Source: a virus
Length of the DNA stretch: 21,527 bases
IMG/VR virus record: IMGVR_UViG_3300017951_000168
Coordinates: 1-21,527 of that record
Reading direction: 5' to 3' (one strand)
In this document: positions 2,399 through 21,479 of the stretch, one piece after another
Layout of the letters: every line of letters begins with the position of its first letter
Position numbering within the stretch: the stretch's first letter is position 1
Notes under the pieces: model-generated
What the model was told of the DNA's origin: nothing
Database searches by the model: none
Seen by the model: only the letters and a program-made list of their open reading frames with translations
Made by a program: the position numbers and the translations under genes

Positions 2399-2406
2399 TA
2401 TAAATA
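2399..2406 (+). promoter_or_regulatory. T4-type late promoter for the gp4 unit
   Basis: The exact box TATAAATA lies 33 bases before the gp4 start. With T4 spacing (box at -13 to -6), transcription would start near 2412 and give a leader of about 28 bases. gp33, the late co-activator used at such promoters, is encoded in this window. Confidence 0.8.
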
Positions 2407-2886: not shown

Positions 2887-2894
2887 TATAAATA
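2887..2894 (+). promoter_or_regulatory. T4-type late promoter inside the gp4 unit
   Basis: The exact TATAAATA begins immediately after the gp4 stop. A start site near 2900 would leave a 16-base leader that contains an AGGAG ribosome site at 2902-2906 in front of the next ATG (2916). It would give the tail/hub genes extra late transcription independent of gp4. Confidence 0.75.
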
Positions 2895-13617: not shown

Positions 13618-14205
13618 TTATAAGGAAGGAAAGGTTATTAACCCAACCGAATCCATAACTTGAATATTATTAATTACAGCAAGAGTTAATAAGGCATTTG
13701 GGAAGTGCAAGTCCTCAGGATTGTCTCCAGCAAGATGGATCATGTATCTTCCCCAAAATAATTTGAATAGTATTATTTCCCCATCGCTTGGGTTTTTACC
13801 TAATAGTGGATTTGCCTCGTAAACATTTGGATGGCTAAGACCACGAATAGTTGTATATGCGTCTAATGCATTGATTGCCCAGAAATAGGTCTTTATTTGT
13901 CTATCATCAAACTGTGAGAATCGTAACCCTTTCAGATTTACCTTTGACTGTAATGTTATCGACTTGATTGAAGCTTCTCTCCGAACACTTTCCAGCAGTG
14001 AACTGTGATAACAACACTCGAACCCCATCATAATTTCTTGTTTGGCCTTCGAGTCTAGCGCCCAAGTTGACGGCATCTCCAATGACGGAATAGTCAAATC
14101 GAGATTCCGATCCCATATTTCCGACGATGCAGTCGCCGGTGTTGATACCAATACCAACATCAATCCTAGGAAGGCCTTGATCTTCCAATTGTGCAATAAG
14201 TTCAT
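13618..14205 (-). CDS. Small protein with DUF5658-like end, overlapping the cyclase gene
   Basis: The downstream part, about residues 100-195, is the non-overlapping real segment: 'TYFWAINALDAYTTIRGL' and 'YEANPLLGKNPSDGEIILFK', a pattern of a small family in phages and bacteria (ALDAYTT...ANPLLGKNPS), often exported or membrane-bound. Upstream there is no ATG, GTG or TTG between the cyclase stop and Met60, so the start must lie inside the cyclase gene: Met59/60 (overlap about 120 bases) or Met1 (overlap 299). From Met1 the sequence 'KAFLGLMLVLVSTPATA' looks like a signal peptide with an ATA cleavage end. No ribosome site decides it. The start given is the longest form. It is the last gene of the late unit; no terminator follows before promoter 13569-13597. 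Confidence 0.6.
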   Translation of the reverse strand: MNLLHNWKIKAFLGLMLVLVSTPATASSEIWDRNLDLTIPSLEMPSTWALDSKAKQEIMMGFECCYHSSLLESVRREASIKSITLQSKVNLKGLRFSQFDDRQIKTYFWAINALDAYTTIRGLSHPNVYEANPLLGKNPSDGEIILFKLFWGRYMIHLAGDNPEDLHFPNALLTLAVINNIQVMDSVGLITFPSL

Positions 14206-15736
14206 CTGCTGCCTCTAATATTTCTACTGCTGTCCTTACAGCCATATCTGCATGATTTTCACATGGTAATGGTGCGTTCCAGAATGCCATAATACAATCG
14301 CCCATATATTTATCAATAGTTCCACCATTCTTGAGAATGATTTTTGTCATTGTATCTAAGTAATTATTTATAAGCTTTACTAACCCTTCTGGGTCATTAT
14401 TGTTTTTATAGTGTTCTGATATTGGTGTAAACCCAACAATGTCCATAAACAAGAAAGTCATTTCCTTTCTTTCTCCACCAAGTTTTAAAAGTGATGGGTC
14501 TTTCTGTAATAACATAACTTGTCTTGGGTCTAAGTAAGTTTCAAATTGTTTCTTAATTTGTTGTCTGAGAACAAACTGTTTATAGAAATTATTAAAGCTT
14601 GTTGATGTAAACAGCAGTATAAATAGCACTAGAGGATAACTAAGGTCTAAAAGTATCTGGAATTTAAACCATGCAAACCAAACTCCAAAGATAGATATAC
14701 CGAGAACCTTAATAAATGTAAATGAGGATATCCACAATGATGTATAATAAGCAGTTAGAACTACCACTAGACCAAATAGAAGCATTACCCCAATCTCCAA
14801 GGCATTTGCCCATATGGGCCGTGAAATCTGGGCCCCATCTATTATGGACTGCATTGCAGAGGCCTGAAGTGAATGTGCAGGTTTCATTCCAAATGGAGTT
14901 GGAATTTGAGCCGAAAGACCCTTTGCAGTTAGACCAATCAGAACAGTCTTACCCTGTAGATCAGGTAACTCACTGGACCCGTAATTTATATCCTGAAAAT
15001 GGGTATTAGGATTAATCCACATAGAACCATTACTATCTGAATTAATTCTAAACGGCCTTAAGATTATTTCTTCAATACCTGCTTCGTTTACTTTAACTGT
15101 ATATGATGGTTTCTGATTCATCACTCTTATAGTTTCTAAAGAGAATGCAGGATATAGCTCACCATTGATTTGAGATATCAGAGGGATTCTTCTTACTAAC
15201 CCATCCACCTCTGGCATACCATTTACAAGACCGTGGCCCCACGCTCCTTGTTCTAGCTGTGATATATTAGTAATAAGACCACTATATTTTATAACCCAGT
15301 CTAGCGGGTCTCCTGTACCAAATGTAGCAGAACCCACATAAGGTGCTGTAGATGATTTACCTGAATTATCAGCATCCTGTGCGAGTATAATACCATTATC
15401 ATTTATCCAAGATGCAAATACTTCATCACCACCAAATCTATCTGCCTCTGGAAACATAATTGTAAATCCTATTAGACCTGCATTTGCATTACGAAGATCC
15501 GAGATCATCTGCGCATATATTTGTCTAGGAAATGGATATTGGCCATGAACAGCCAGTGTTTCTTCTGATATATTTAATAATACTATTTGATCTGAATGTT
15601 TTTCTTCTATCGTGCCTATCATGGCATCGAATGTATTTAATCTGAATTGTTGAACCAGAGCCGGATCTAGCAATCTGATTCCTACTAAAAGTAAGAATAA
15701 GGCTATAGTCGCCCAGATAGATGTTATATATTTCAT
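13907..15736 (-). CDS. CHASE2-domain transmembrane adenylate cyclase (class III)
   Basis: With ATG at 15736 the protein has 609 residues and an ATGA overlap with the curlin-like gene before it; a longer start at 15781 is possible but less likely. Order: N-terminal helix (about 6-22), CHASE2 periplasmic sensor (about 30-305, including 'GFTIMFPEADRFGGD' and 'LQGKTVLIGLTAKGL'), three membrane helices (about 310-382), linker, class III cyclase domain (about 420-605). The catalytic set is complete: metal-binding Asp432 (FMDIVGFT) and Asp480, adenine-selecting Lys476 and Asp548 (DKYMGD, FDYSVIGD), transition-state Asn557 and Arg561 (VNLGARLE). K/D rather than E/C predicts cAMP, not cGMP, as product. 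Such cyclases are common in bacteria, often near FecR-domain genes, but unusual in a phage. Confidence 0.9.
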   Translation of the reverse strand: MKYITSIWATIALFLLLVGIRLLDPALVQQFRLNTFDAMIGTIEEKHSDQIVLLNISEETLAVHGQYPFPRQIYAQMISDLRNANAGLIGFTIMFPEADRFGGDEVFASWINDNGIILAQDADNSGKSSTAPYVGSATFGTGDPLDWVIKYSGLITNISQLEQGAWGHGLVNGMPEVDGLVRRIPLISQINGELYPAFSLETIRVMNQKPSYTVKVNEAGIEEIILRPFRINSDSNGSMWINPNTHFQDINYGSSELPDLQGKTVLIGLTAKGLSAQIPTPFGMKPAHSLQASAMQSIIDGAQISRPIWANALEIGVMLLFGLVVVLTAYYTSLWISSFTFIKVLGISIFGVWFAWFKFQILLDLSYPLVLFILLFTSTSFNNFYKQFVLRQQIKKQFETYLDPRQVMLLQKDPSLLKLGGERKEMTFLFMDIVGFTPISEHYKNNNDPEGLVKLINNYLDTMTKIILKNGGTIDKYMGDCIMAFWNAPLPCENHADMAVRTAVEILEAADELIAQLEDQGLPRIDVGIGINTGDCIVGNMGSESRFDYSVIGDAVNLGARLEGQTRNYDGVRVLLSQFTAGKCSERSFNQVDNITVKGKSERVTILTV

Positions 15737-16479
15737 TGACCTTGTGTAACTGATACTGTACAACCACCGACTGTATAACAAGTTTGAGATAGTGAATATG
15801 ATTGAGCAGTTGTTCCTAACTGTATCAGTGTTAAATCTGTTCCGTATGTTCCATCAAGTGTAATGTTTGCTGTATGAGAAGTATTTGCACCTTTTTGTCT
15901 TAACGTAACTAAATTATCATCATTATATATTGTTAGATCCATATCTTTTGCACCACTTGATTGTTGTCTTCCATTAATTTCGTTCCAATCTCCTGCAAGA
16001 TGAAAATTAAAATCGTGTCCGTCTGTTGCATCACTTTGATTTGTTTGGTGCCATTTAAGTGAATTATTACTACCATATAAATCTATTTCCATATAGTGTC
16101 CGCCACCTTCAGCACCATCATAAGTATATGAACCATCACTCTGCCATGCAACACCTTGTGCTAATTTAAATGTATTATTTGAACCTGATACTTCATCAAA
16201 TAAAATTTTATTAACATTATTTGTAAAATTATATTGGACTATGTGAATATCTAGGTTAGGTGCATTGTTAATATAAGAAGCAGAATCTAACATGCCAATT
16301 TGATTATTATATCCTACTTGCTCGATTTCTAATGATAGATTATCACCACTTTGTTCTATTGTAATTTCATTATCGTCTGCGTATAATGGCATTACTAAAA
16401 AGAAACATGACCCCCATGGTAATATCCAATATTTAAATATAAATTCTCTTATCTTCTTCCAGTCCATTCTAACCACCAT
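15733..16479 (-). CDS. Exported curlin-like repeat protein 2
   Basis: The 248-residue protein has a basic start and hydrophobic core (about 13-34, FIFKYWILPWGSCFFLVMPL) ending at 'YA-DD', a likely signal peptide. The mature start 'NEITIEQSGDNLSLEIEQVG' matches the CsgA-type repeat I-x-Q-x-G-(x)-N-x5-Q. Further strands with Asn turns follow (GSNNTFKLAQG, GSNNSLKWHQ, NLVTLRQKGANT, TLIQLGTT, SVTQGQ). Two cysteines (234, 240) near the end are matched in the sister protein. It resembles a fibre subunit or nucleator. Met5 (16467) is an alternative start. It lies between FecR and cyclase genes. Confidence 0.72.
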   Translation of the reverse strand: MVVRMDWKKIREFIFKYWILPWGSCFFLVMPLYADDNEITIEQSGDNLSLEIEQVGYNNQIGMLDSASYINNAPNLDIHIVQYNFTNNVNKILFDEVSGSNNTFKLAQGVAWQSDGSYTYDGAEGGGHYMEIDLYGSNNSLKWHQTNQSDATDGHDFNFHLAGDWNEINGRQQSSGAKDMDLTIYNDDNLVTLRQKGANTSHTANITLDGTYGTDLTLIQLGTTAQSYSLSQTCYTVGGCTVSVTQGQ

Positions 16480-16534
16480 CTGAAGTACCTTCTTCCTTCT
16501 CCGTACGCTGCCGATCTTAATTTATTATATTTCA

Positions 16535-17653
16535 TTAATTTACCTGATTGATAACGATAAAAATATCTTCACCGTCATTTCCTGTTATATCTCCTTCCCA
16601 TGTAGGAGTGTTTGTAGCAAGAGTAAAGTTACCACCTGTTCCGACTTTAACTTTAATTACTCCATTTACATTTCTATATAGTACTAAACTTCCATCTTCC
16701 AAATAAACATTATATTGTGATTCTTCATTAAATCCTCTAGTTGCTCCTTTGATATCAAACTCGCCTAAAGAATCAAATAAATCTGATGAATCAATTATGT
16801 CTAGCACATCAACTAAATATTCTACGTTTAGTTCATCAATATCTAACTCACTAAAATCTAATTCCGGTTCACTTTCTTCTAGTGCGTCTTTTTCTAGTTC
16901 GTTAAATTCTAAGAAGTCTATATCCAATAAACCTCTATCATCATTTTGTTCATCAGCCAACTCTTCTTCAATTCTATCTTTTACTTCAGGTGGAGGAGCA
17001 ACGATAAACATATTATCAATTTGAGTTGGAGTAATTCCATTTAATTTTACTACTTGGGTGGGTGCGGTATCTAATGAACTTACCATTGTTGCTTGATAAG
17101 CTTCATCAAGAGTTACTACACCACCTAAATTAGCCACCTCTATTTCTCCAGACGGATCTCCATTTTCATCTGGCAACAATATAACTAATGATCGGCCTAA
17201 TTCATCTACTGTTGTAGTAAAATCAGTACCTCTAATTGCTATTGTTGCAGTCGGAGTAGATATATCAATATTTGCATTATTAACTAATCCTAATCTGCCT
17301 GAAGCAAACCTTGCCGTACCCATTGTGAACTTCATTGTCATCTTGGACAGGGATGGGTCAGCATCATAATATATTTCATCTATTAGAACTTCACTATGTT
17401 CTTTTAATGCTAATTGAGCCTTATCTAAAAACTCTATTAACATTCTCCCCTGTCCAGTTTCTGCAATATCATTTAATTCGATAGCAGTATTAACAGCCAT
17501 ACTTACAGACTGTTGGTTTCTTACTATCTGACCAACTCCTGTGGACTCGACTATACTTCCAATATCATCATCTGCATATACAGGCAAAGATAAAAGAAGT
17601 ATAATACTAAGAGTCGCTAGAGCTGTCTTGCTGATTAATCTGAATTGTAGCAT
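16535..17653 (-). CDS. Periplasmic FecR-domain protein
   Basis: The 372-residue protein begins with a signal peptide (ISKTALATLSIILLLSLPVYA, cut about 27). A FecR domain follows (about 55-150) with 'GQGRMLIEFLDKAQLALKE' and the signature 'STPTATIAIRGTDFTT'. Residues about 215-300 are strongly acidic (EEELADEQNDD, ESEPELDFSELDIDEL), and a small strand-rich end follows. Unlike the iron regulator FecR it has no membrane helix, so it is probably a soluble sensor, scaffold or fibre partner. It overlaps the curlin-like gene upstream by 47 bases. FecR-domain proteins paired with CHASE2 cyclases are known in bacteria; here the curlin-like gene sits between them. Confidence 0.82.
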   Translation of the reverse strand: MLQFRLISKTALATLSIILLLSLPVYADDDIGSIVESTGVGQIVRNQQSVSMAVNTAIELNDIAETGQGRMLIEFLDKAQLALKEHSEVLIDEIYYDADPSLSKMTMKFTMGTARFASGRLGLVNNANIDISTPTATIAIRGTDFTTTVDELGRSLVILLPDENGDPSGEIEVANLGGVVTLDEAYQATMVSSLDTAPTQVVKLNGITPTQIDNMFIVAPPPEVKDRIEEELADEQNDDRGLLDIDFLEFNELEKDALEESEPELDFSELDIDELNVEYLVDVLDIIDSSDLFDSLGEFDIKGATRGFNEESQYNVYLEDGSLVLYRNVNGVIKVKVGTGGNFTLATNTPTWEGDITGNDGEDIFIVINQVN

Positions 17654-18344
17654 TGTCTGATGTAATATCTAAATCTATAATCGCATTTGGTGTAGCACAA
17701 CCCGTAATATTTGTAGCACAAGTTCCACTGATTTGATCAATATCAATGTCAGCAGAATCTCCACTTAATACTACAGTAAGAGATTGAGAACCATCATTCT
17801 GTAATGTGTTAATGTTATTGCTGTCTCCAGTAATATCAAAATTCCAAGTTACATCATCAGCCTCAAAATCTAAATCAAATACGTTAGAACTACCAACCAG
17901 AATTAAGTCAGCATCCAATCTTTCAGCACTATATAAATATCCTTGATCTATATCAAATGTATTACTATCTCCAGTGATATCAAAGTTATAATTTGAATCA
18001 TCAGCAGAACCTATGTAACCAATATTCCAGTCCAATACATTTGAATCTCCTGTAAAAGAAATAGTAAAATCAGATGTATCTGAAATAAGAGGTCCATAAA
18101 TTATATTTTGATTACCTATCATATCTATATCAAAAGTTAAAGATGATCCAGTGATAACCATATCAGAAGCAGTAGTTGAAAAATCATTACCGCCGATCTT
18201 GTTACCATATCCAATCTGATCAATATAAAGTGTTAAAGTATTACCACTTTGTTCAATCATGATTTCGTTATCATCAGTTGCTTGTGCCAAAATTGAAGGT
18301 GCTAAAAATGCACTTAATACTAAACTAGTTAATACCTTCTTCAT
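17607..18344 (-). CDS. Exported curlin-like repeat protein 1 (amyloid subunit candidate)
   Basis: The 245-residue protein opens with a clear signal peptide (KKVLTSLVLSAFLAPSILA, cut after Ala20 or 22). Its mature start 'NEIMIEQSGNTLTLYIDQIG' follows curlin logic (I-x-Q-x-G ... Q-x-G-x-x-N). It then carries repeats of alternating hydrophobic strands joined by G-D/S-S-N turns at about 99, 125, 151, 173 and 195, 22-26 residues apart (FTGDSN, ITGDSN, VGSSN, ITGDSN, SGDSA). The body is Asp-rich, unlike Gln/Asn-rich CsgA. Cys209 and Cys216 lie near the end, as in the sister gene. It starts 20 bases inside the csgG end, with AGAGG before ATG. CsgG and CsgF next door suggest that it is the exported cargo. 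Confidence 0.78.
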   Translation of the reverse strand: MKKVLTSLVLSAFLAPSILAQATDDNEIMIEQSGNTLTLYIDQIGYGNKIGGNDFSTTASDMVITGSSLTFDIDMIGNQNIIYGPLISDTSDFTISFTGDSNVLDWNIGYIGSADDSNYNFDITGDSNTFDIDQGYLYSAERLDADLILVGSSNVFDLDFEADDVTWNFDITGDSNNINTLQNDGSQSLTVVLSGDSADIDIDQISGTCATNITGCATPNAIIDLDITSDNATIQINQQDSSSDS

Positions 18345-19350
18345 TTTCGTTTTCCTCTATTAGAGAGTGCCTTTGGTTTACCCCACCTATTTGGTGAGGA
18401 TGCCTATGGCCCTCAGTTAAATTCCAGAATTTACGGTCATGGCCCTGGTAGATTAATTCCAGTACAGCCGCCTCAATGGCAGATCGTACTGCATACGTCA
18501 CGCTCTCATTATTTCCCACTCCGTCCTCATACTCTAATAGTCTTGTACCTTGTTCATAGAACCTAAATACATCACCACTAGAGCCGTAAGAAAGTACCGA
18601 CTTCTTAGCCTGGACGTTTAATAAAACTTCCCCCGTTAGAACTGAAACTGCTCTTACTGCAACAGTTACAACATCTTTACGGTACATTCTACTATAACCA
18701 ATCCCGAGAGTTCTGGCACCACGGCCTCCTGTCTCCAAATTAGTATCGTAGCCTATTATTCCGCCCTCTATGATTATTCCTGCGAATAACATGGGGCCTA
18801 ATTCCTTTGCTTCCGTGCCTTGACTTCTTGCCAAATCTTGACGGCCGCTTCGGATAATTTGTCTTTCTCTTACAAGGTTATCAATACCTTGCCTTTCTAC
18901 TACTCTAAACCAAGTGCCACCACCTGCAGTTTTAAGAGCATCTATAAGTAATTCTGTTCCACCTTGGGTCACTGCTGTAGAAAATGAAGCAACATTATCT
19001 ACTGATTTTCTTTGTCCTGTTTTATCAGTAAACCCATAAACTGCCACTACTGGCATTTCTTCTGCTGGTGGTAAGTTAAGTAATTCTACAAATGAAGGTA
19101 GTCTGATAGCCATTGGATTGTCTACGCAGATATACTTTCTTGACATTACTTTTTGCCATTCGTTATATCCTTGTCTAGCAACTGTGACTAAATCATCATT
19201 AATAACACCATCGTTATCAAAATCTTTATCGTAACCTTCACTGTATATTCCTGCTAGATCATTGCAGTCTCTCGGATCTGAACTCCATTGTGGTACAGAA
19301 GCGCAACCAGTTAAAAATAATAATCCTGCTGTTAATAAAGTTCTAACCAT
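18325..19350 (-). CDS. csgG: CsgG-like outer-membrane lipoprotein channel
   Basis: The 341-residue protein has a lipobox, LTGC, with Cys16 for lipid attachment. The core matches CsgG closely: 'VAVYGFTDKTGQRKS', 'SFSTAVTQGGTELLIDALK', 'FRVVERQGIDNLVRERQIIR', 'IIIEGGIIGYDTNLETGGRG', 'ARTLGIG', and 'VRAVSVLTGEVLLNVQAKKS' with 'LSYG...VFRF'. In bacteria CsgG is a nonameric pore that exports curlin. The constriction loop, aligned by eye, keeps Phe56 but has Asp and Ser for Tyr51 and Asn55 of E. coli. About 80 extra residues lie before the core, with a calcium-loop-like 'DKDFDNDGVINDD'. It overlaps csgF by 8 bases. Confidence 0.92.
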   Translation of the reverse strand: MVRTLLTAGLLFLTGCASVPQWSSDPRDCNDLAGIYSEGYDKDFDNDGVINDDLVTVARQGYNEWQKVMSRKYICVDNPMAIRLPSFVELLNLPPAEEMPVVAVYGFTDKTGQRKSVDNVASFSTAVTQGGTELLIDALKTAGGGTWFRVVERQGIDNLVRERQIIRSGRQDLARSQGTEAKELGPMLFAGIIIEGGIIGYDTNLETGGRGARTLGIGYSRMYRKDVVTVAVRAVSVLTGEVLLNVQAKKSVLSYGSSGDVFRFYEQGTRLLEYEDGVGNNESVTYAVRSAIEAAVLELIYQGHDRKFWNLTEGHRHPHQIGGVNQRHSLIEENENEEGIN

Positions 19351-19846
19351 TGTCTGGATCCTGCCCGAAATTACCAGTTCCTACTGGAATCTCTATAACA
19401 GTCTCTGAACCATCCTCTGCTACAATCGTCATTCTAATAACTTCTGAACCATCTGCATTAGTAATTACTTCATAGGTAACTGTATTACCTTCTAAAACAA
19501 ATGAACCAAATCTTACTGATCCGTCATTAGAAAACATAGATTCCACTAATTGTTTTGCCATCTGAGCATATATTCTGCTCTCTAAATTTCTGATAAATTT
19601 TGCAAGTACGCTATTATCTTCTTCCCTTTCTGCTGCTTTTCTTGCTGCTTCTAAAGCATCTTCAATTGCTTTCTTTCTAGTGTGTTCTATATTATCAATT
19701 GTAAGGTAATGTTGACCTGTACCAACTCCACTAAAGGAAGGATTCTTAAATCCAAACTTTATTTCATCTGCATATGCAGGTTGGGTAATACCAAATATTG
19801 ATACTACAAAAATACCACATAATATAGCAACTTCAAACTTGCTCAT
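19343..19846 (-). CDS. csgF: CsgF-like curli assembly factor
   Basis: The start at 19846 is chosen because AGGAGGA sits 5 bases before it; a longer reading from 19885 overlaps the 92-aa gene needlessly. The 167-residue protein has a signal peptide (about 1-26, ending QPAYA) and mature N-terminus 'DEIKFGFKNPSFSG', which matches CsgF 'TFQFRNPNFGG', the part that inserts into the CsgG channel. After this come a helical Ala/Glu-rich stretch and strands at the end (NADGSEVIRMTIVAEDGSET). CsgF couples the pore to curlin nucleation at the surface. Next gene csgG overlaps by 8 bases. Confidence 0.85.
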   Translation of the reverse strand: MSKFEVAILCGIFVVSIFGITQPAYADEIKFGFKNPSFSGVGTGQHYLTIDNIEHTRKKAIEDALEAARKAAEREEDNSVLAKFIRNLESRIYAQMAKQLVESMFSNDGSVRFGSFVLEGNTVTYEVITNADGSEVIRMTIVAEDGSETVIEIPVGTGNFGQDPDNG

Positions 19847-20111
19847 TATTTCCTCCTCGCTTATTGGTCTTTTTCTTTTTTTCATTCTCTCTATATTCTA
19901 AGATTACATTTACTTTTTGTTGTAATCTAATTAAATCTTGATCTAACATTCTTGTCTGATCAATTACTCTTATCAACGCAATGTGCATTTCTTCTAACTT
20001 AGGTTCTATGTGTTCATTTATATACGACCAAACATAGTATATAAAATATCCCATCCCAACTGCCATTACTGCTGGGAATCCGTAATCTGATACTAGTTGT
20101 GCCACATCCAT
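19833..20111 (-). CDS. Holin-like single-pass protein with coiled tail (92 aa)
   Basis: There is one N-terminal membrane helix (residues about 11-30, FPAVMAVGMGYFIYYVW) with a short exposed start (MDVAQLVSDYG), followed by a coiled-coil tail (35-75) and a very basic end (KKKKTNKRGG). This resembles BhlA/UviB-type phage holin-like proteins in layout. The 98-aa gene upstream has the same layout, so the two may be paralogues. It starts directly after that gene's stop, with AGGAGA before the ATG. Position after the lysozyme supports a lysis role, but a part of the curli cassette is possible. Confidence 0.65.
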   Translation of the reverse strand: MDVAQLVSDYGFPAVMAVGMGYFIYYVWSYINEHIEPKLEEMHIALIRVIDQTRMLDQDLIRLQQKVNVILEYRENEKKKKTNKRGGNNEQV

Positions 20112-20408
20112 TTAATCTCTCCTAGTATCTATTTTACCATCTTCTATAAAGTTTTCTGCTCTTGCTATTCTTTCAGTATCTGGTCTTAAATGTAAAGCAG
20201 TACTTACAAGTAAGTCAATCTTTATCATTTCATTACTCATTGTTCTACATCTATTTTCTAAACTTTTTGCAAAGATAGTAAGAGTATCAATCTTTTCTAC
20301 TATCCCTGCGAGTATTTGTTTTATAACAATAAAAATAAATACACCCATAACAAGTGATCCTGCTATAGGCGCTCCAACGTCTGCAATGAGTTTGAACACT
20401 TCTTCCAT
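20112..20408 (-). CDS. Holin-like single-pass protein (98 aa)
   Basis: A single membrane helix near the N-terminus (about 11-36, GAPIAGSLVMGVFIFIVIKQIL) is followed by a helical cytoplasmic tail (SLENRCRTMSNEMIKIDLLV) and a charged end. Same layout as the 92-aa gene that follows at once. The ATG lies 6 bases after a TATAAATA box, leaving essentially no leader and no ribosome site, so it may be translated from a leaderless mRNA. Confidence 0.68.
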   Translation of the reverse strand: MEEVFKLIADVGAPIAGSLVMGVFIFIVIKQILAGIVEKIDTLTIFAKSLENRCRTMSNEMIKIDLLVSTALHLRPDTERIARAENFIEDGKIDTRRD

Positions 20409-20414
20409 ATATTC

Positions 20415-20422
20415 TATTTATA
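20415..20422 (-). promoter_or_regulatory. T4-type late promoter for the holin-like/curli cassette
   Basis: The minus strand reads TATAAATA, ending 7 bases before the 98-aa ATG (20408). With T4 spacing the first transcribed base is 20409 or the A of the ATG itself. It follows the hairpin at 20449-20467, so it appears to begin a new late transcript carrying the holin-like genes and the curli cassette. Confidence 0.75.
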
Positions 20423-20740: not shown

Positions 20741-20918
20741 ATCTTTCTCCTATTTCTTTTTTGGTTAAATGCCATTCAGAATATCTAGTGTATCCCTGTT
20801 TCTCATGGCACCAATACCAACCTTTTTCGGTTTGGGGTTCTGATGTATGATACCAGTTTAGACCATTTCTAGTCTCGACATAAGTCTCTCGGCCCGATTC
20901 GTTACTTGCCTGTACCAT
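20724..20918 (-). CDS. Small Trp-rich protein of unknown function (64 aa)
   Basis: Starting at Met (20918) the protein reads 'MVQASNESGRETYVETRNGL', then 'GWYWCHEKQGYTRYSEWHL'. I chose this start because GGAGGG lies 8 bases upstream; a start at 20954 would add 12 residues and overlap the lysozyme more. It still overlaps the lysozyme end by 61 bases. No family recognised. Confidence 0.62.
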   Translation of the reverse strand: MVQASNESGRETYVETRNGLNWYHTSEPQTEKGWYWCHEKQGYTRYSEWHLTKKEIGERYGTNN

Positions 20919-21304
20919 CGTGAGTCCCTCCCCTCTTTCGCTGCTTCTTTCCAATTATCGTTTAGAATTGCTGCATGCATTTTTTTGAATTTACTAAGTC
21001 TTGTCCTACCCATATTAAACATCATGTTGACCAATATCTGCTGGACTTCGTCGGGTAAAGCACTAAATCGCCCGTCTTCGTATAGCTTATTACATTCTTC
21101 GATGGCAATATTGAGATCGCTTTCGAAGCACTCTCGGACTCTTTCTTCGGAAACCATAGTGCCAACTTCAAGTCCATGCTCTGGATCAGATTCGAGTACC
21201 AAGTGTCCCACCCCAAATGTAGGATAGCCCAGATGGTCGAGATATACCTCATAGACTACTCCTTCATCAATTTTTAATTGTTCAAATACTGCTTCTCTAT
21301 TCAT
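20858..21304 (-). CDS. e: T4-type lysozyme (GH24 endolysin)
   Basis: The 148-residue protein aligns with T4 lysozyme at 'LKIDEGVVYEVYLDHLGYPT' and 'FGVGHLV'. The catalytic triad is present: Glu14, Asp23 and Thr29, equal to T4 Glu11, Asp20 and Thr26. The rest includes 'LPDEVQQILVNMMFNMGR' and 'SRWYRQVTNRAERLM', the usual C-terminal lobe. It cleaves the peptidoglycan sugar backbone. No signal peptide, so a holin is needed; the two single-pass proteins downstream are candidates. A late promoter box sits at 21322-21329, with AAGGA before the ATG. Confidence 0.93.
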   Translation of the reverse strand: MNREAVFEQLKIDEGVVYEVYLDHLGYPTFGVGHLVLESDPEHGLEVGTMVSEERVRECFESDLNIAIEECNKLYEDGRFSALPDEVQQILVNMMFNMGRTRLSKFKKMHAAILNDNWKEAAKEGRDSRWYRQVTNRAERLMSRLEMV

Positions 21305-21305
21305 T

Positions 21306-21479
21306 TTAATCCTTTATTAAATATTTATACATATATTCTTCAGCCTTTTCAAGACTGTTAAATTTACGAATTTCGTTACCTGTTGCCACTTCGACTATAG
21401 TATATATATTGTATAATCTCTTAATTTGAAAAGGCAACATTCTTATTGGCCCTAATCCAGGTTTAACTGATGCCATCAT
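21306..21479 (-). CDS. Small basic protein (57 aa)
   Basis: The frame reads MMASVKPGLGPIRMLPFQIK and ends 'EYMYKYLIKD'; ATG at 21479 or 21476. A CAGGAT site lies before it. The order of a basic N-terminus, a strand (YNIYTIVEVATGNEIRKFN) and a short helix (SLEKAEEYMYKYL) is reminiscent of small nucleic-acid or peptide-binding phage proteins, but no family is named. The lysozyme promoter lies in its 3' end. Confidence 0.68.
   Translation of the reverse strand: MMASVKPGLGPIRMLPFQIKRLYNIYTIVEVATGNEIRKFNSLEKAEEYMYKYLIKD
21322..21329 (-). promoter_or_regulatory. T4-type late promoter for the lysozyme unit
   Basis: The minus strand reads TATAAATA inside the end of the 57-aa gene. The expected start near 21316 gives a 12-base leader that contains AAGGAT before the lysozyme ATG at 21304. 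Confidence 0.78.

Follow-up and report, generated by a model that had tools for sequence, protein, structure and literature searches.

An adenylate cyclase that probably provides the signalling output of a curli module in phages, and an apparent second gene overlapping its 3′ end

A curli cluster was reported in 2020 (Zaragoza-Solas, 2020; PMC7029224). Wittmers et al. (2022; PMC9599517) describe FecR and adenylate cyclase genes in the curli module of marine phages, the cyclase being commoner in myophages, and infer an alphaproteobacterial origin for it. The pelagiphage type VIII secretion (curli) module described there shows the same genes and order as the locus reported here, with the cyclase last, an alphaproteobacterial affinity, and both myophage and podophage carriers; histidine kinases are placed before CsgF. 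The cultured phage HTVC008M carries a full-length homologue of the cyclase (44.7% identity) at the end of its curli cluster, annotated as an adenylate/guanylyl cyclase (AGE60353). The cyclase itself is an already known part of a marine-phage module. Literature searches gave nothing further on adenylate cyclases encoded by phages or on a cAMP receptor in SAR11. The locus differs from the account in PMC9599517 in several respects: in the parts of its text consulted there is no mention of an overlapping DUF5658-like gene, of residues of class IIIb type, of late-promoter boxes or of SAR11 lacking a receptor.

Among bacteria, the alphaproteobacterial CHASE2-class III cyclases show the same domain order and residues, and some have FecR neighbours. 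They are longer, however (~715–840 aa for the best matches), and no curli genes were found beside them. CyaB-type cyclases carry other sensor domains, where the phage cyclase has CHASE2 instead. The class IIIb CyaB proteins of P. aeruginosa (3r5g) and Anabaena (2w01) have the same catalytic domain and motifs, but the phage cyclase displays a Ser at the CyaB Thr position.

The cyclase is read here as the signalling output of the phage curli module, encoded by a gene whose end is dual-coding; we give this reading a probability of roughly 0.7. Late in infection the phage would make curlin and its pore, a periplasmic FecR-domain protein would report the state of the fibre or envelope to CHASE2, and the cytoplasmic cyclase domain would then make cAMP. 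Sequence statistics show the last ~98 cyclase codons to be dual-coding: in the +1 frame they also encode the beginning of another protein, which carries a DUF5658-like domain and in the main clade would be transcribed from a putative late promoter within the cyclase gene.

Features of the module

The window, the whole stretch of DNA analysed, is a 21,527-base IMG/VR record in which T4-like tail, ssDNA-binding and helicase-loader genes are also present. All module genes lie in an operon-like run on one strand, in the order two small membrane proteins, CsgF, CsgG, curlin, FecR, curlin and lastly the cyclase; the order from CsgF to cyclase is that of the described module. The features are:

20415..20422 (−), T4-type late-promoter-like box TATAAATA, just before the first module gene
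20112..20408 (−), small membrane and coiled-coil protein, first module gene (phrog_18771)
19833..20111 (−), small membrane and coiled-coil protein (phrog_18771)
19343..19885 (−), CsgF (PF10614, E = 1.4e-12)
18325..19350 (−), CsgG outer-membrane secretion pore with lipobox LTGC (PF03783, E = 1.1e-53)
17607..18344 (−), first curlin-repeat protein with signal peptide (PF07012, E = 2.6e-3, below the cut-off; family consistent across loci)
16535..17653 (−), FecR-domain protein with N-terminal signal or anchor (PF04773, E = 1.9e-7; phrog_37870)
15733..16479 (−), second curlin-repeat protein with signal peptide (PF07012, E = 2.9e-4)
13907..15736 (−), CHASE2-class III adenylate cyclase, 609 aa, ATG at 15736 (phrog_35576 over its full length, E = 1.4e-197)
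15653..15709 (−), N-terminal transmembrane helix of the cyclase, residues 10–28, by hydropathy
14768..15700 (−), CHASE2 match, residues 13–323 (PF05226, E = 2e-37), predicted periplasmic from the likely topology
14606..14803 (−), C-terminal transmembrane cluster, residues 312–377, by hydropathy
13922..14467 (−), class III cyclase catalytic domain (PF00211); nearest solved structures are bacterial CyaB-type cyclases
14365..14372 (−), T4-type late-promoter-like box TATAAATA inside the cyclase gene, ~160 nt before the ATG of the overlapping ORF
13618..14205 (−), overlapping gene, 195 aa, in the +1 frame of the cyclase: signal-peptide-like N-terminus, linker and DUF5658-like helical domain

The two genes ahead of CsgF code for 92 and 98 aa and show no Pfam match. 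Across loci the genes at this place are of 79–129 aa (median 98), belong to phrog_18771, and display membrane and coiled-coil segments, likewise with no Pfam match; one gives a weak holin match (phrog_4898, E = 0.0015). They are probably the genes called HK in PMC9599517, and a kinase identity is unlikely. A phage lysozyme gene (PF00959, window 20858–21304, −) precedes the module on the same strand.

The cyclase, its residues and its relatives

The start codon of the cyclase and the stop codon of the second curlin gene overlap in the sequence ATGA. A Guanylate_cyc match (PF00211, E = 2.9e-19; 69.8 bits against a cut-off of 21.9) places the protein in class III. Hydropathy gives one transmembrane segment ahead of CHASE2 and several behind it, so that the PF05226 match lies between transmembrane helices. 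The catalytic domain has a dN/dS of ~0.05 and the N-terminal/CHASE2 part one of ~0.12, which is strong purifying selection; thus both parts are kept. An initial annotation of this DNA had described an intact CHASE2-class III cyclase, and the 609 aa length, both Pfam domains, the presence of all six residues at the positions it named, and the low dN/dS bear it out.

The class III residue set is complete, consisting of metal-binding D432 and D480, adenine-binding K476, and transition-state N557 and R561. These five were correctly listed in the initial annotation as catalytic; its sixth residue, D548, does not hold as a catalytic or specificity residue. In class IIIb cyclases the substrate is defined by the Thr position, and the specificity pair is Lys with Asp, Thr or Ser in adenylate cyclases and Glu with Cys in guanylate cyclases. 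The phage segment FDYSVIGDAVN aligns on MDYTIIGREVN of Pseudomonas CyaB (3r5g). Since this alignment puts Ser550 at the class IIIb Thr position, the selectivity residue is Ser550, not D548. Of 83 phages, 81 have Ser at position 550; in bacterial homologues the residue there is Ser or Thr in 37 of 38. The pair is therefore K476/S550, of adenylate type and class IIIb-like in the alignment to CyaB. The earlier argument from a K/D pair was misaligned, but cAMP is still the likeliest predicted product, and a guanylate cyclase, for which there is no Glu/Cys pair, is ruled out by the residues.

D432, K476, D480, D548, N557 and R561 are invariant in 82 of the 83 phage cyclases. The exception is that of the OM43 phage Melnitz (L003, 9001–11052), in which D548 and N557 are both altered; the chain has Asp at 550, Ser for Asn at 557, and a C-terminal extension. 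The Melnitz cyclase may be inactive or altered. Because N557 is lost and S550 replaced by Asp in this phage, cyclase activity may not be universal among the phages.

Relatives are encoded in at least 599 IMG/VR stretches, and matches to the cyclase occur in only 9 of 50,697 deposited phage records. Such cyclases had been called rare in phages, a description the IMG/VR count does not support; the cyclase is not rare in the sea. In agreement with the origin given in PMC9599517, a phylogeny places the phage cyclases as one clade (SH-aLRT 100) inside the alphaproteobacterial CHASE2 cyclases, in a tree whose bacterial rows are nearly all alphaproteobacterial and which is not a fair test of other donors.

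A FecR gene is found near the CHASE2 cyclase in 9 of 30 alphaproteobacterial loci. In ~64 bacterial curli loci FecR is found in none and a cyclase match in one, ~9 kb away; thus the phages have not simply copied a curli operon from bacteria. Since FecR lies near bacterial cyclases but in none of the curli loci, the phage module seems to combine a bacterial curli unit with a second bacterial unit made up of FecR and the CHASE2 cyclase. Bacterial curli operons with FecR and cyclase were considered as a donor and rejected, the candidate loci carrying phage-type module genes and being read as phage contigs in MAG bins. Phage curli-module contigs binned into bacterial MAGs in genome collections are L084–L091, L093–L096, L103, L104 and L242; the bins include Rhodobacteraceae, Sphingobacteriales, Pelagibacter and others, and L086 and L088 are over 120 kb long.

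A signal from FecR to CHASE2 is plausible because of the gene neighbourhood, that is, the FecR genes near CHASE2 cyclases in bacteria. In the phages FecR and the cyclase are usually separated by a curlin gene, which counts against this link.

Hosts and the action of cAMP

HTVC008M infects SAR11 and its cyclase is intact. A search of 79 SAR11-family genomes for the cNMP-binding domain (PF00027) showed it to be absent in 75 and present in 4; as MAGs are incomplete, any one absence carries less weight, but the overall trend holds. A PF00027 cAMP receptor was also sought in 11 phage records and found in none (0/11). No class III cyclase of the host's own was clearly found in the 79 genomes; the two strong matches in the family lie on contigs with the phage curli module, in MAG bins. 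The initial annotation's reading that the phage raises host cAMP thus lacks a visible target. There may be a different kind of receptor, the phage may infect a host other than SAR11, or CRP may not be what reads the signal. Phage-made cAMP in SAR11-type hosts with no recognisable receptor is thus a clear and testable puzzle.

One answer, which has a real but minority share of the probability, is that the cAMP works through a CRP-type regulator in another marine bacterium that has one. The window cyclase is only 44.7% identical to that of HTVC008M and 35.6% to that of Melnitz, and relatives are binned with many unrelated MAGs, so hosts may vary. However, the window ssDNA-binding protein is closest to those of HTVC008M, Melnitz and cyanophages, at only 56–57%, so no particular other host is indicated, and HTVC008M keeps its cyclase intact in SAR11.

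It is considerably less probable that the cyclase is a passenger of an acquired bacterial curli-signalling module, selected for a membrane or scaffold function alone and with no cAMP role in receptor-less hosts such as SAR11. This would agree with the near absence of cNMP-binding domains from SAR11 genomes, with the lack there of a clear class III cyclase other than the two on phage contigs, and with the loss of a transition-state residue in Melnitz. A passenger would lose its catalytic residues, however, and these are invariant in all but one of the phages; the catalytic domain is moreover the most constrained part of the protein.

The reading of the cyclase as the signalling output of the module can be extended. 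In the extended form a second gene would be overprinted on the catalytic domain, taking its start, signal peptide and linker from the +1 frame; it would be expressed late from the internal promoter, its product would act at the envelope with the curli module, and the cyclase would make cAMP in hosts with no known receptor by way of a receptor of another kind. Taken whole, this extended form is tentative, and we would sooner bet against it than for it.

The overlapping frame, late boxes and gene order

The ORF at 13618–14205 shares 13907–14205 (299 nt, the last ~98 cyclase codons) with the cyclase and appears to be truly coding. In every true carrier the +1 frame is without stops after the ORF start. 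Synonymous re-coding of the same cyclases, with each cyclase's own synonymous codons, gives a mean of 7–10 stops (P(0) ≤ 0.001 each), and phages without the downstream domain show 1–14 stops in this frame. HTVC008M differs in having no overlapping +1-frame gene, with 7 stops in that frame. Fourfold synonymous differences in carriers are nearly halved in the overlap, 0.32 vs 0.56 upstream; the values in non-carriers are 0.54 and 0.50. In 48 further loci the +1 frame is open in 48/48 and frame +2 has 4–11 stops, while fourfold variation dips to 0.20–0.40; patterns within the overlapping protein served to find these loci, so that openness is partly selected for, which does not apply to the fourfold dip. 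On the cyclase tree, 5 changes are needed to explain which phages are carriers. L041, L045, L048 and L069 were tried as carriers and moved out of the set, another gene being found downstream.

The open frame could alternatively be a by-product of cyclase codon usage, with the DUF5658-like protein starting elsewhere. The null is imperfect, as in most non-carriers, too, stops in the +1 frame are fewer than in the synonymous shuffles. But a complete lack of stops after the start is seen in every true carrier and not in non-carriers, the fourfold dip is confined to carriers and repeated in the further loci, and in the window no ATG, GTG or TTG occurs in the overlap frame between the cyclase stop and the DUF5658-like domain. 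A by-product is thus very improbable.

The overlapping gene at the cyclase end is apparently the unreported part of the locus, and no deposited phage record matches its protein. Standard annotation can overlook a gene of this sort, which in a large tailed phage overlaps a conserved catalytic domain out of frame and over a long stretch. The conserved cyclase motif NTGxCIVGN accounts in part for the signal-peptide-like stretch, which phages without the gene show in the +1 frame too. Matches to DUF5658 (PF18902) at E ≤ 0.01 are found in 19 of 29 members of the overlapping protein (best 1.7e-6); the window member scores 19.4 bits against a gathering score of 25.2. In the predicted structure the helical C-terminal domain has pLDDT mostly above 90, and the region after the signal peptide is poorly modelled. 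A fold search gave no PDB match below E = 0.7 and one viral match (E = 2.9e-4), an uncharacterised 139-aa protein. The product is probably a secreted or membrane protein; a role at the envelope beside the curli module is a guess.

The sequence TATAAATA is the T4 late −10 box. Of 43 loci, 26 have a YATAAATA box near the start of the module vs 1.6 expected, and because of the box at the module start late expression of the module is inferred. Within the cyclase gene, 18 of 30 carriers have the internal TATAAATA box vs 0 of 53 non-carriers in the same interval; among further loci it occurs in 33 of 47. These counts are not independent events because the box carriers form mainly one clade. Its position is mostly 463–478 nt before the cyclase stop, and it is absent from the outer carrier lineages. 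In the main clade the overlapping gene would thus be served by a separate late promoter within the cyclase gene. The motif CTAAATA was dropped (2 sites vs 8 expected), and the T4-type TATAAATA fits. Further TATAAATA boxes lie close before structural and lysozyme genes, at 2399–2406 (+), 2432–2439 (−), 2887–2894 (+) and 21322–21329 (−), as expected of T4-type late promoters.

HTVC008M and Melnitz share the gene order of the window, as do the IMG/VR loci whose flanks are long enough, apart from a few such as L060 and L063. The initial annotation had raised a phage–host chimera at 15700–16500, which is excluded: dozens of independent contigs and two complete phage genomes on deposit show the identical order, and there is no base-composition step. 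In L060 and L063 two other ORFs (~467 and ~238 aa) are situated ahead of the cyclase in place of the FecR and curlin genes.
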